Shown here: positions 1,568-7,189 of the stretch, piece after piece
Position numbering within the stretch: the first letter of the stretch is position 1
Layout: each line of letters begins with the position of its first letter
Translations under genes and position numbers: made by a program
Assembly (NCBI GenBank): GCA_029233965.1
Contig: JARGOP010000033.1
Location: 1 to 56,050 of the forward strand
Direction: 5' to 3'
Source: Verrucomicrobiales bacterium
GTDB taxonomy: Bacteria; Verrucomicrobiota; Verrucomicrobiia; Verrucomicrobiales; DEV007
Length of the DNA stretch: 56,050 nucleotides
Notes under the pieces: generated by a model
The model's input: only the letters and a program-made list of their open reading frames with translations
Databases searched by the model: none
What the model was told of the DNA's origin: nothing

Positions 1568-2509
1568 TCAGACGGATTGAAGGGCTTCGAGGTGGTGTCT
1601 CACGGCAAGGGCGAGACCGGCCTGGTTGTATCCGCCCTCGAGAACGGAAACGAGCCGTCCTTCGGAAAATTCCCCCGCCATTTCCGAGAGGATCCGGGTG
1701 AGGCTGGCGAAGTCTTTGTCGCTGAGGGTGAGCTGCCCGAGAGGATCGTCAAGCCGACTGTCGAATCCGGCGGAAATGATGACGAGGTCGGGTTTGAATT
1801 CCTTCATCTTTGTGGTGAAAGGTCCGCGGAAAGCCGCTTCGATTTCGGCCATGCCCGAGCCGGCGGGGAGGGGGGTATTCAGGGTCGTGTTCTTTCCCTG
1901 ACCACTGCCGGTTTCCTCTTTCATCCCGGTGCCCGGATACCACGGGTGCTGATGAGTCGAGAAGTAGAAGACGCTTCCGTCTTCGTAGAAGATGTCCTGG
2001 GTTCCGTTGCCGTGGTGGACGTCCCAATCGATGATGACGACCCGCTTGAGCCCGTGTTTCTGCTGCGCATAGCGGGCGGCGATGGCGGCGTTGTTGAAAA
2101 TGCAGAAGCCCATGCCGCGGTCGGGCGTGGCATGATGTCCCGGAGGACGGACGGCACAGAAAGCGTTTCGGAGTTCTCCTGAAATGACGCCATCGACCGC
2201 ACCGAGAAGGCCCCCCGCGGCCTTGCGGGCGACTTCCAAAGAGTTAGGGCCGAAGTTGGTATCGCCGGTGCTGAGCTGGCCCGAGCTTCCATCGATTTCC
2301 CGAAGGACGGTTTTCAGGTAGCCGTCGGTGTGAGCGAGGAGGACTTCGTCGTCGGTAACGGAACGCTCCGGCAATGGCTTGCAGGAGTCCGCCACGCCTG
2401 AAGCCGTCAGTTCATTGATGATGGCTTCGATTCTCCCCGGCGCTTCAGGATGGTGATCGCCGGGATCATGTTCGGTAAAGGCGCGGTCGAGGAGGAGTCC
2501 GGTTTTCAT
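1568..2509 (-). CDS. histone deacetylase-family protein (acetylpolyamine amidohydrolase-like)
   Basis: A 313-residue single-domain enzyme of the arginase/deacetylase fold. It shows the family signatures in order: R-P-P-G-H-H at 121-126 (catalytic His pair), the zinc ligands in D161-W-D163-V-H165-H166-G, a third zinc Asp in AGFDS near 250, and a final EGGY motif. All zinc and catalytic positions look intact, so it should remove acetyl groups from an amide. Bacterial members act on acetylpolyamines, acetoin-pathway proteins or acetylated proteins; the substrate here is unknown. No signal peptide is visible, so it is cytoplasmic. Its ATG overlaps the stop of the upstream DUF3592 gene (TGATG), suggesting translational coupling, and the sulfatase follows after 5 bases. 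Confidence 0.93.
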   Translation of the reverse strand: MKTGLLLDRAFTEHDPGDHHPEAPGRIEAIINELTASGVADSCKPLPERSVTDDEVLLAHTDGYLKTVLREIDGSSGQLSTGDTNFGPNSLEVARKAAGGLLGAVDGVISGELRNAFCAVRPPGHHATPDRGMGFCIFNNAAIAARYAQQKHGLKRVVIIDWDVHHGNGTQDIFYEDGSVFYFSTHQHPWYPGTGMKEETGSGQGKNTTLNTPLPAGSGMAEIEAAFRGPFTTKMKEFKPDLVIISAGFDSRLDDPLGQLTLSDKDFASLTRILSEMAGEFSEGRLVSVLEGGYNQAGLALAVRHHLEALQSV

Positions 2510-3686: not shown

Positions 3687-3709
3687 CTCAACCTGATTTG
3701 TCATCAGAA

Positions 3710-4384
3710 ATGAAAATTTCCGCGATTATCGTCGCTGCCGGCAGCAGTCGTCGCATGGGCTTCGACAAGCTCGCGGCAGACCTTGCCGGTGAATCAGTCC
3801 TCTCCCGCTCGATTCTCGCGTTTCAGTTCTGTCCTGAGGTCTTTGAAATCCGCGTGGTGACGTCGCCGGAGAAAATCGACGGGATTACTGCCGATGCTTC
3901 GCGACTCGGGGTGACCAAATTTGTCGAAGCGATCCAGGGAGGGGCGGAGCGCCATCTCTCGGTGAACGCCGGGCTCTCCCGGGTCAGCGAAGAAGCGGAC
4001 CTTGTCGCGGTCCATGACGGGGCGAGGCCTCTGATTTCTCCGGAAGCGATCACGCGGTGCGGGGAGGTTGCGATGGAGACCCGGGCTGCCAGTCTCGCGC
4101 ATCGTGTCGCGGATACCCTGAAGCGTGCGGACGGTGCCGGCAATGTCTGTGGGGCGGTTTCACGCGAAGATCTCTGGGCGATGGAGACGCCGCAGATTTT
4201 TAACGTTTCCCTCCTCAAGCGTGCCTATGCCTCCGTCCTTGAGGCCGGTGTCGTCGTCACGGATGAAGTATCCGCGATTGAGGCACTCGGGGAGGAGGTC
4301 ACGCTGGTGGAAAATTGCGAGCCGAATTTGAAGATTACGGTGCCGGGTGATCTGGTGATTGCCGCGGCGATCTTTAAGAAGTAA
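3710..4384 (+). CDS. ispD: 2-C-methyl-D-erythritol 4-phosphate cytidylyltransferase
   Basis: Catalyses CTP + MEP to CDP-ME in the non-mevalonate isoprenoid pathway (cytoplasm). From the ATG at 3710 it is 224 residues, the usual IspD length. The N-terminal nucleotide-binding loop A-A-G-S-S-R-R-M-G-F-D-K (residues 9-20), the V-H-D-G-A-R-P segment near 102, and the V-T-D-E-x-x-A-x-E block near 185 are all present. A TTG four codons upstream (3698) is an alternative start, but the ATG places the conserved first strand at the normal distance. No other MEP-pathway gene is adjacent; ispF is often fused or next to ispD in other bacteria but is not here. Confidence 0.95.
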   Translation: MKISAIIVAAGSSRRMGFDKLAADLAGESVLSRSILAFQFCPEVFEIRVVTSPEKIDGITADASRLGVTKFVEAIQGGAERHLSVNAGLSRVSEEADLVAVHDGARPLISPEAITRCGEVAMETRAASLAHRVADTLKRADGAGNVCGAVSREDLWAMETPQIFNVSLLKRAYASVLEAGVVVTDEVSAIEALGEEVTLVENCEPNLKITVPGDLVIAAAIFKK

Positions 4385-4400: not shown

Positions 4401-4718
4401 CTAAAACCGTTCCGGGCGGCAGATCTCCACATCCTCGAGATACATGACCCCTGCGAAATCTTCGAAACACTCGGACAGCACCTTCTCCGCGATGACTTCG
4501 GCCACGGCACGGTCCACCGTGACGACCTCGATCTTCAGGTTGTCGAAGCCCTCGATTACCGTTGCCTTTTTTGAGGTTGAGTGAAGATGGTGCATCCCTT
4601 TCCCGCCAATGGGGACGAGCGTGTATCCTTTTCCGTTACAGGATTCAATGATGGCGCAGACCTTCTCAGAGATGAAATACTCGGTAATAATGACGAGTTT
4701 TTTTGCTGGGTAGAACAT
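4401..4718 (-). CDS. sbtB: PII-like signalling protein SbtB
   Basis: A 105-residue PII-superfamily protein. The strand 'KKLVIITEYF' opens it, followed by a T-loop region G-G-K-G-M-H-H-L-H-S-T (about 38-48) and the second ferredoxin-like repeat 'LKIEVVTVDR...EKVLSECFEDFAGVMYLEDVE'. The overall pattern and the basic ending match cyanobacterial SbtB closely, including 'YTLVP.GGKG' and 'F.D..G..Y...VE'. Known SbtB proteins bind adenine nucleotides including cAMP and inhibit SbtA. The C-terminal CGPxGC redox loop seen in some SbtBs is absent. It sits 24 bases downstream of sbtA on the same strand, the canonical order. Confidence 0.88.
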   Translation of the reverse strand: MFYPAKKLVIITEYFISEKVCAIIESCNGKGYTLVPIGGKGMHHLHSTSKKATVIEGFDNLKIEVVTVDRAVAEVIAEKVLSECFEDFAGVMYLEDVEICRPERF

Positions 4719-4742
4719 GGTGACTGGCTTTTGAGTTGGAGA

Positions 4743-5750
4743 TTAGAGATCAAAAACGACCTGCGCAAGTGCGACGAAAAGAGGGATGCAAATTGCGATC
4801 GCGACCGGTGTCCCGACGCTGGTTGAGGCACCGATGTACGACGAAGGGTTTGCCCATGGAATTCCGGCGCGGATCGTGGGAGGGCCCGAGATGTCGGAGT
4901 TGGATGCGGCAATGACGGAAAGCAGGACGACTCCGCCGGGACTGAAGCCGACCCAGAGATGCGCGAGATAGCCGAGACCGAAGGCGATTAACCCGTGCAC
5001 GATGGGTCCGAAAAAGGCGTAGACGGCGAACCAGTGAGCGACATCTTTGAGTTCTTTGATCCGTGTCCAGGCCTCCATTCCGAGGACGAGCATGAGGACG
5101 GAGAGGAGCCCGCGGAAGAGAGGCTCGTAGAAGCTCGCGAGCACCGTCTCCGGCCTCGCGAAAAGTCCGAGGAAGAGGCCCAGGATCATGGCGGATAAGG
5201 CTGAGCTGCGCAGGCTTTCTTTGACGATGGCCCAGGCGTGCACCTTTTTCCTTTCTCCTCCCTTGTTCTTCTCCCGCTGGATGCTGGCGAGGACGATCGC
5301 GAGGATGAGTGCGGGGATGTCCATGAAGGGATACAGCGCCGGCATCCATGCTTCGAAATTCATGCTTTGCTCCTCCAGCATGACGATGGCCGCGGCCAGG
5401 GTCGAAGCGCTCACCGCTCCGAACAAACCCGCCGTTGCGGTTCCGTCTGCCGAATTGATCCCGGGCAATCGGGAAAAAATGAAATGGCCGAGAAACACGA
5501 TGAGGAGGCCGAGAACGACAGAGATGGCTGCCGGCAACAGCATTTCGGAGAGTTCTGCTCCGCGGATCTCGACGCCGCCTTTCATCCCGATTTTCATGAG
5601 AAGCACGAAAACGACAAACTGGTAGATCGGACTCGGAATCGTCAGTTTGCTGCCGAAGGCGGCAAGGAGAGCCCCCCCGATCAGAAAAGACAAGGTCGGT
5701 GATTGCAACTGCGAGGCAAATTGGCGGAGGAAGTCGAAAATTAGTTCCAT
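4743..5750 (-). CDS. sbtA: sodium-dependent bicarbonate transporter SbtA family
   Basis: A 335-residue inner-membrane protein with about ten hydrophobic segments arranged as two inverted halves, and the signatures of SbtA: 'LLMKIGMKGG' near 50, 'FGAVSASTLAAAIVMLEE' near 110-125, and 'ASNSDISGPPTIRAGIPWANPSSYIGASTSVGTPVAIAI' near 285-320 (described in pieces: NSDISGPP, IPWANPS, STSVGTP). These are the bicarbonate/sodium-binding helices of the cyanobacterial transporter. It is followed by sbtB, which supports the assignment. The charged loop E-K-N-K-G-G-E-R-K-K near 160 is the cytoplasmic linker between the halves. The upstream 170 bases are very AT-rich, unlike the surrounding DNA, and probably hold its promoter. 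Confidence 0.9.
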   Translation of the reverse strand: MELIFDFLRQFASQLQSPTLSFLIGGALLAAFGSKLTIPSPIYQFVVFVLLMKIGMKGGVEIRGAELSEMLLPAAISVVLGLLIVFLGHFIFSRLPGINSADGTATAGLFGAVSASTLAAAIVMLEEQSMNFEAWMPALYPFMDIPALILAIVLASIQREKNKGGERKKVHAWAIVKESLRSSALSAMILGLFLGLFARPETVLASFYEPLFRGLLSVLMLVLGMEAWTRIKELKDVAHWFAVYAFFGPIVHGLIAFGLGYLAHLWVGFSPGGVVLLSVIAASNSDISGPPTIRAGIPWANPSSYIGASTSVGTPVAIAICIPLFVALAQVVFDL

Positions 5751-5820: not shown

Positions 5821-5876
5821 AATATTTTTAAAATATATTAATCAAAAAATATAGTTCTATAAATCAGAACGATAAA
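5821..5876 (-). promoter_or_regulatory. AT-rich sbtA upstream region with a dyad
   Basis: About 50 bases of almost pure A/T precede sbtA. They include the dyad GTTCT-N7-AGAAC (5854-5858 and 5866-5870) and several TATAAA/TATATT-like hexamers on the minus strand. The contrast with the GC-rich surroundings suggests a promoter with an operator. No specific regulator is identified. Confidence 0.3.
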
Positions 5877-5923: not shown

Positions 5924-7189
5924 TCAGCGCTTTGCGAAACCTGCTTCGCTGCTCACCATGGCGTCCCGGCTGTCTGTCAGGGTCACAATCCAGGTATTCG
6001 CCTCCGGCGGAAGCCCTTCAGCGATCACTTTTCCCTTTTGGACGACAGCGGGCAGAGTTTCCCATTTCCGTTCGGTCCGGAGACCTTCGTCGCTGGTGTA
6101 GTGAAGCTCCGCTTTCACCAACGGAACCTTCGACTCATACGGGAGAGAAACGACGCCATCGGCGGATATGCTCATCCCGCCGACTTTTGGAAGCGGCGTG
6201 CCCCCGATGAGAAGCGAATCGACGAAGATCCCGATTTCCTTTGGCTCCCATCCCGGCTGATGGCCGTGTCGCATGCGGGGTTCGATTCGAACGGTGCGGG
6301 GCGCCTGCACGAGCGCGTAGGATTTCGCGTAGCTGTCGAGCACGTAGTGCTTGTCGTGAGTTCCGTTGACCCAGAGCGTGGGGACGGTGCATTTCCCGAG
6401 ATGACTTGACGGATCGTAAGCGGCGATCCAGGCCTCGCGGCGTTCTCCAAGAGCATCGATGGAGGGCTTTTGCACGGATTCGCCTTCGTGGAGAAATCCA
6501 CAGCCGTAGACGGGGACGGCGGCTTTGAAGCGATCATCGAGGGAGGCGACGAGGCAGGTCGTGTAACCACCCCAACTGATCCCGGTAACAGCGGTTTTGT
6601 CAGGATCGACTTCGGCAAAACTCCGCAACAAGGTGTGTGCCTTCATGACGTTGGCGACGGCGTGGTAGGGCCAGTCGTCGTCCCGGGTGCCGCCGATGCT
6701 TTCGAACTTTTCAGCGTGCGTGTGATCGAGTCCGGCCTTCTCAAGTCGAACCCGGTCCTCGCGGGAATGATTGGCATCGGGGACTTTCCCCCCGTCAGCC
6801 CGGAAAGTCGGTGCCGGGGGACGTCGACCTGAAAGGTCCATCGCAATGGCGGCATAGCCACGTTGTGCCCAGAGCCAGACCCAGTCGGAGAAGGCGGTGC
6901 CGCCGCCTCCGTGGATCAAGACAATGCCGGGAACTTTCTGTCCCTCGTTGAGGTTCCGCAGTGTTTTTGGTGAGGCATAAAAGGCAAAGACTTCGGTGGG
7001 TTTTCCATCGACGGGTTCTCCGGCGTAAAGAATCGACTGGATCGGCCTGCCTTCGTCTTCGATTGAGAAAGCAGGGACCTCTGATTGGAGTCGGCTGATC
7101 GGCCAGGTGCCGGGCGTTTCGTCGGCGGAGGCGAATGGCAGGATGGCGAAGAAGGGAAGAGTAAAAAACAGAGAGAAATGTTTCATCAT
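5924..7189 (-). CDS. secreted alpha/beta hydrolase (acetyl xylan esterase/dienelactone hydrolase-like)
   Basis: A 421-residue exported hydrolase with a signal peptide ending near A20-S-A. The alpha/beta hydrolase signatures are an oxyanion-hole H-G-G-G-G at 93-97 and the nucleophile elbow G-I-S205-W-G-G. An Asp in 'NGTHDKHY' and a His in 'RMRHGHQPGW' complete a plausible triad. The C-terminal 100 residues look like a beta-sandwich appendage. Relatives are esterases acting on acetylated polysaccharides, but the substrate is inferred only. It is the last of five leftward genes that start opposite the XylR-like regulator, 71 bases after the PQQ-propeller gene. Confidence 0.85.
   Translation of the reverse strand: MMKHFSLFFTLPFFAILPFASADETPGTWPISRLQSEVPAFSIEDEGRPIQSILYAGEPVDGKPTEVFAFYASPKTLRNLNEGQKVPGIVLIHGGGGTAFSDWVWLWAQRGYAAIAMDLSGRRPPAPTFRADGGKVPDANHSREDRVRLEKAGLDHTHAEKFESIGGTRDDDWPYHAVANVMKAHTLLRSFAEVDPDKTAVTGISWGGYTTCLVASLDDRFKAAVPVYGCGFLHEGESVQKPSIDALGERREAWIAAYDPSSHLGKCTVPTLWVNGTHDKHYVLDSYAKSYALVQAPRTVRIEPRMRHGHQPGWEPKEIGIFVDSLLIGGTPLPKVGGMSISADGVVSLPYESKVPLVKAELHYTSDEGLRTERKWETLPAVVQKGKVIAEGLPPEANTWIVTLTDSRDAMVSSEAGFAKR

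Follow-up and report, generated by a model that had tools for sequence, protein, structure and literature searches.

The window, by which we mean the whole stretch of 56,050 nucleotides analysed here (contig C102 of genome G000), belongs to an incomplete assembly (96% complete) of a member of the Verrucomicrobiota. It carries on its minus strand a gene of the canonical SbtA class of Na+/HCO3- symporters (sbtA, 4743-5750, 335 aa), followed after a gap of 24 bp by the gene of a PII-like partner (sbtB, 4401-4718, 105 aa, minus strand). An earlier note on this DNA had described such a pair, in canonical order and outside Cyanobacteria. Both points are borne out: the two genes lie at the place noted and match their families, SbtA over its full length, and all four close relatives come from genomes assembled from metagenomes, of which three bear the title Verrucomicrobia. 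Upstream of sbtA there is a predicted LysR-type operator of 17 bp (5854-5870). The pair is flanked on one side by ispD (3698-4384, plus strand) and on the other by an alpha/beta-hydrolase-like gene (5924-7189, minus strand), both named by eye. A histone-deacetylase-like gene, also named by eye, lies at most about 3 kb from sbtA both in the window (1568-2509) and at another locus with sbtA (L006:7336-8394); in the window it is part of the ispD neighbourhood shared with congeners, so this proximity is probably due to chance.

The protein encoded by sbtA matches the Pfam profile Sbt_1 (PF05982) from end to end (positions 1-308 of 308; 301.7 bits for a cut-off of 27, E 7.9e-90). Its sole PDB sequence match at E <= 0.001 is the SbtA Slr1512 (E 7.7e-125, 60% identity); the NCBIfam profiles assign no family to either SbtA or SbtB. 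The structure of Slr1512 provided the contacts of Na+, and the docked and mutated contacts of HCO3- (PMC8352866). In a sequence alignment using the residues given in that one paper, the window's SbtA is identical to Slr1512 at the five positions of the Na+ site (F110, G111, A112, A320, S322) and at the four of the HCO3- site (S114, Y140, S324, S327), and so are five other verrucomicrobial copies. The transporter signatures are thus as well preserved as the earlier note had stated, and the loss of sodium or bicarbonate ligands that it named as a counter-argument did not occur in this sequence alignment. The same can be said of its other counter-argument, a grouping with unrelated SbtA-like permeases, because the protein falls within a canonical SbtA clade of ten rows (100/100 support), in a tree with three cyanobacterial sequences, apart from the paralogues at about 30% identity. 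It differs from Slr1512 in having Ala at position 115 and Asn at position 323, and in a shorter central cytoplasmic loop, which is also shorter in Pseudanabaena. The two substitutions occur in all six verrucomicrobial copies, where the three cyanobacterial copies compared have Gly and Ser. The Na+ and HCO3- pockets lie on either side of position 323, and a change at the matching position of Shewanella SO_3758 affects formate tolerance according to the available text of PMC12093963. A predicted fold model of SbtA (pLDDT 41 with six sequences) was too low for use. SbtA is a real member of its class and looks like a functional bicarbonate importer.

Canonical SbtA is rare in the phylum. With the window's SbtA as query, 21 of 387 genomes match at E <= 1e-30, three of them with canonical SbtA (this genome at 100%, the others at 74 and 72% identity) and the remaining 18 with SbtA-like copies at 29-34% identity. 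Two of 141 relatives match at E <= 1e-50, namely this genome and G404 of the same genus (71%), and in the class of G023, to which the window does not belong, 3 of 345 genomes gave a match. A scan of named genome contigs, which used this single protein as query and reached close relatives only, identified four close loci at 72-77% identity: G023, G174, G526, and GSL.Bin9 (G387), where GSL presumably stands for Great Salt Lake. In some genomes, a fraction of the first-look candidates was scored in these searches (e.g., 5 out of 10), so the absences are not absolute, though a relative at 70% should rank first. In the plasmid collection, tblastn returned 14 records, two of them cyanobacterial (61 and 56%) and the other 12 at 33% or less. 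We also observed an SbtA at 47% identity on an IMG/VR contig labelled viral (L068, 518-1615), where no SbtB-like ORF follows directly and the surrounding ORFs, judged by eye, resemble bacterial ones; this sequence served solely as one row in the canonical-clade tree.

The protein encoded by sbtB matches the Pfam profile P-II (48.5 bits), and its best PDB sequence matches with phmmer are the PII-like protein 3dfe of Anabaena and the SbtB Slr1513 (E 1e-17 for slr1513). Its fold model has a pLDDT of 72.7, falling under 50 at residues 38-57 (the T-loop region), and Foldseek searches with this model list SbtB entries first (top hit 7egk_B, E 2.5e-10). Like Slr1513, it is a PII-like protein with the SbtB fold, encoded directly downstream of sbtA. 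Unlike Slr1513, it lacks the two elements that PMC10117731, in its available text, links to nucleotide handling in the Synechocystis protein. There, the T-loop arginines of R43xxR46 hold the phosphates of ATP or ADP and are needed for apyrase activity, which is abolished when either arginine, or the cysteines of the R-loop, are changed to alanine. The window's SbtB has H43-H44-L45-H46 exactly at the positions of R43xxR46, with no preceding alignment gap. The HxxH motif is found in four of the five verrucomicrobial SbtBs (window, L005, L007, and L008), and the fifth, from G404, keeps RNVR. The C-terminal CGPxGC R-loop is not found in the window's protein, which ends at residue 105. In the alignment it is absent from all five verrucomicrobial SbtBs and from Pseudanabaena, and present in Acaryochloris; it is conserved in some SbtB homologues only (PMC8352866). 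As far as the alignment tells, H43xxH46 and the missing R-loop mark a variant of SbtB, not an exclusion from SbtB membership. With RxxR lost and the R-loop absent, the protein is unlikely to handle ATP/ADP or to be under redox control in the manner of Synechocystis SbtB. The genome has seven matches to the cyclase family PF00211, and cAMP may thus well be made by this organism. The earlier view of a well-preserved PII-like partner therefore holds for the PII fold, the similarity to SbtB, and the adjoining sbtA, and fails for the ATP and redox elements of Synechocystis. The sbtB gene directly follows sbtA in five of six verrucomicrobial loci. The exception is G023, where SbtA is present and no SbtB match was obtained at E <= 0.001, which suggests that SbtB is not always needed.

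The SbtA-like paralogues of other Verrucomicrobiota at about 30% identity share the Pfam family of the window's protein and the pairing with a PII-like partner, and are possibly pairs of the SbtA2-SbtB2 kind, a label we take from the available text of PMC13249358. This genome encodes one such pair on contig C99 (L001:1471-2732), where a second Sbt_1 gene, at about 30% identity, is accompanied by a PII-like partner. In the product of this second Sbt_1 gene, the alignment shows neither Y140 nor S327. A sweep of the phylum gave 17 SbtB-like matches in 16 of the 387 genomes. Fourteen of these lie directly beside an Sbt_1 match, and the other three have no Sbt_1 among the matches listed at the cut-off used. 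The partners of the paralogues differ from the window's SbtB in the T-loop: by eye, RxxR is kept in 9 and HxxH occurs in none of the other 15 SbtB-like matches of the phylum.

At three of the six loci (L006, L007, and L008), a LysR gene is divergent from sbtA, and a site of the form (G/A)TTCTAT-N6-GAAC immediately precedes the LysR start. In the window, no LysR gene adjoins sbtA, but GTTCTATAAATCAGAAC is present at 5854-5870, which places it 103 to 120 bp ahead of the start of sbtA. An intact LysR of the same clade is encoded in this genome on contig C20, which has no Sbt_1 match, with ATTCTATTTTTCAGAAC at its start. The operator was first noticed by eye and then searched as a pattern; matrices were later made from sites outside the window. 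With the matrix built from L006-L008 alone, 5854-5870 comes first among 56034 positions (18.6 bits; the runner-up has 16.1), as does the C20 site among 10985; the matrix from five LysR-adjacent sites gives 23.2 to the window's site (next 15.8). None of 50 control loci (205438 positions) reached the window's score, with the proviso that L045 is no true control: its site, on contig C137 of this same genome, scores 22.2 where the window scores 22.25 (four-site matrix). By itself, the pattern GTTC-N9-GAAC lacks significance, with 2 matches to 1.48 expected in the window, and is found in 15 of 97 loci, some of them unrelated. We regard 5854-5870 as a probable LysR-type control site, shared with other genes of carbon uptake.

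Relatives of this LysR in GSL.Bin9, in G394, and on C20 are 49-53% identical to the LysRs of L006-L008; the one of GSL.Bin9 is divergent from dabB and dabA (PF10070, 813 bits) and the one of G394 from an Sbt_1 gene. At the GSL.Bin9 locus (L116:247-5331), we observe that the LysR divergent from dabA and dabB is about 51-52% identical to the sbtA-adjacent LysRs. The best NCBIfam model for this clade is NhaR, at 126-142 bits, which is below the cut-off of 219, in a scan of five of the six proteins, all but that of G394. A third Sbt_1 gene of the genome (L045:5443-6403 on C137, minus strand) is split between two frames and adjoins a 5'-truncated LysR remnant. G394 has an unbroken relative of it (86-90% identical), and the split may be due either to decay or to faulty assembly. 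About 105 bp upstream of the split gene lies the highest-scoring site within its 12 kb, the one of 22.2 bits. Comparable operators were not found upstream of sbtA in L005/GSL.Bin9 (12.7-13.3 bits) and G404 (5.0), upstream of dabB in L116 (9.3 bits), or within the 12 kb that surround the pair on C99 (9.0 bits), these scores coming from two slightly different matrices. The simplest reading of these patterns is a trans-acting regulon comprising the C20 LysR, sbtAB, and formerly the C137 gene. The window's pair would thereby differ from Slr1512-Slr1513 in having a predicted operator of an NhaR-like LysR clade. We found no report in the literature naming DabA, SbtA, LysR, and bicarbonate together.

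The neighbours of the pair elsewhere also bear on what is transported. In L005 and L008, two of the six loci, sbtB is followed by a carbonic anhydrase gene (NF011765, over the NCBIfam cut-off) whose product has an N-terminal signal peptide visible by eye and looks exported. Such an enzyme would make HCO3- at the cell surface for import by SbtA; no such gene lies beside the window's pair. In L006 (genome G023), a glutamate dehydrogenase gene follows sbtA. The affinity of the LysR clade for NhaR, together with Asn323 in all six verrucomicrobial SbtAs, at the position tied to formate tolerance in SO_3758 in what is available of PMC12093963, could mean that SbtA serves mainly Na+, pH, or ion balance, or takes up another small carboxylate such as formate. 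We regard this as unlikely: all nine site residues are kept, sbtB is linked to sbtA in five of six loci and a carbonic anhydrase in two of six, and genes of related LysRs adjoin dabBA in one genome and a different Sbt_1 gene in another.

The history of the pair was assessed from its insertion site and from the SbtA tree. We found ispD in 29 of the 33 genomes of the genus, this one included, with up to 82% identity in a relative. In 6 of 28 relatives' loci, ispD adjoins the same hydrolase gene with nothing like sbtAB between them. In G394 and G400 this hydrolase is 78-82% identical and next to ispD, with 65 bp separating the two ORFs in the latter. Neither sbtA nor sbtB lies beside ispD in any of the 28 loci, within flanks of at most 1.5 kb, some ended by a contig edge. 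Given this empty site in six congeners (G400 and five others), a gain is the best reading of the segment 4385-5923 (an approximate extent, with its genes on the minus strand). In base composition the segment does not stand out clearly as foreign (GC of 0.58 for sbtA, 0.52 for sbtB, and 0.57 for the window). Contamination of the window's contig was considered and rejected, because its flanks are syntenic with those of congeners.

The tree points in the same direction. In the nine-row tree, the window's SbtA groups with GSL.Bin9 and with three copies of another class (UBA6053, Co_bin.216, and SRR2107179_bin.42) at 99/99, leaving outside the copy of its own genus, G404. A clade uniting the window's copy with that of G404 is rejected, at a cost of 23.3 log-likelihood units and with an AU p of 0.0019, the tested group having been named after a first tree had been seen. 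The midpoint root puts G404 on the cyanobacterial side in the tree with paralogues and on the verrucomicrobial side in the nine-row tree; in both, G404 stays outside the five-copy group. This conflict depends on G404, whose assembly is 77% complete and carries sbtAB on a contig of 5.3 kb that may be contaminated; the conflict would vanish if that contig were misbinned. With these caveats, the phylogeny that the earlier note had proposed as a check for transfer supports it, and the empty site adds support that does not depend on G404. One could instead suppose that a verrucomicrobial ancestor had sbtAB and that most lineages lost it, since SbtA copies occur in at least two classes and in G404, and since a branch separates the six verrucomicrobial copies from the three cyanobacterial ones (100/100). 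We find vertical inheritance decidedly unlikely, given the AU result with its post hoc grouping and G404 caveat, the ispD/hydrolase site empty in 6 of 28 congener loci with the pair beside ispD in none, and the presence of canonical SbtA in just 3 of 387 genomes of the phylum. The sbtAB pair was thus apparently gained by horizontal transfer.

The genome was searched for the enzymes that could use the imported carbon, as the earlier note had suggested. Rubisco (PF00016) has no match in the assembly, with the same search being positive in 5 of 14 control genomes. We identified one beta carbonic anhydrase (PF00484), without an obvious signal peptide by eye, and one PEP carboxylase, outside the window. 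The earlier statement that there are no autotrophy genes is therefore upheld for Rubisco, and the pair differs from the cyanobacterial CO2-concentrating mechanism in residing in a genome without detected Rubisco. Autotrophy by another pathway is highly improbable, because, even if the search covered Rubisco only and SbtA occurs in autotrophs with other pathways (PMC10880623, available text), the window reads by eye as that of a polymer-degrading heterotroph, with sulfatase- and hydrolase-like genes.

Anaplerotic supply of bicarbonate, also proposed earlier, retains its general part: supplying carboxylases is the most reasonable use of the pair. Its specific part, a supply to the carboxylase encoded in part by accD in the window, is not supported. 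Acetyl-CoA carboxylase meets a general need. Since 139 of 141 relatives nevertheless lack an SbtA of this class at E <= 1e-50, we rejected a special use by accD as unspecific. PEP carboxylase is at least as good a candidate user of HCO3-. The available text of PMC10880623 notes, for cells with a CO2-concentrating mechanism, the risk of CO2 leakage when a cytoplasmic carbonic anhydrase coexists with an HCO3- importer, and reports that among autotrophs SbtA is absent below a pH optimum of 4.3. The carbonic anhydrase of this genome, if cytoplasmic, could likewise lead to the loss of imported carbon as CO2, which counts against such a use.

Taken together, we consider it probable that this is a horizontally acquired and functional SbtA-SbtB pair, importing HCO3- under an altered ligand logic of SbtB and under control in trans by a LysR, and serving HCO3--using enzymes. 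HCO3- would enter together with Na+ through SbtA by an elevator mechanism, as proposed for Slr1512, and the T-loop of SbtB would plug the cytoplasmic side of SbtA, with HxxH in place of RxxR and no redox R-loop. The LysR encoded on C20 would switch the transcription of sbtA through the predicted upstream site, and the imported HCO3- would feed PEP carboxylase and other enzymes using it. We infer that import would be of use when CO2 is scarce, as in alkaline or saline water, in a cell where Rubisco was not detected. The pair is thus more specific than first noted, being apparently transferred, endowed with a changed SbtB, and probably under a LysR switch. A more daring extension, which we hold to be doubtful, is that the two to three T-loop histidines replacing the ATP-phosphate arginines make the SbtB plug sense cytoplasmic pH or a metal, not ATP or redox state. 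The importer would then belong to an inorganic-carbon regulon of a new LysR clade, found beside sbtA, another Sbt_1 gene, or dabBA, and would work in heterotrophs as an interchangeable module for carbon uptake.

Since PMC10117731, PMC10030771, and PMC13249358 mention SbtA-like proteins in heterotrophs or outside Cyanobacteria, the occurrence of an Sbt permease beyond that phylum is in itself no novelty. The Sbt-family permease of SAR11 (PMC10030771) and SO_3758 of Shewanella (PMC12093963) resemble the window's SbtA in being of Sbt type in bacteria not known to live by CO2 fixation, and the SAR11 paper mentions anaplerotic enzymes in connection with its permease. In the available parts of these two papers, SbtB is named once each, in a reference title, unlike the sbtB that is paired with sbtA in the window. 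A literature search for SbtA with Verrucomicrobi returned PMC9477826 alone, where the latter term occurs solely in a reference title. Neither an HxxH SbtB nor this LysR operator turned up in the literature, in searches that were not aimed at those letters and in sources that leave out most subscription papers.

SbtA-SbtB has been studied mainly within photosynthetic carbon concentration. An apparently transferred pair in a genome without detected Rubisco would separate bicarbonate uptake from carbon fixation. The way SbtB acts on SbtA and the cue it senses are called unsettled by reviews (PMC10117731 and PMC13249358, in their available text), and an SbtB in which RxxR has become HxxH would provide a natural variant for both questions.
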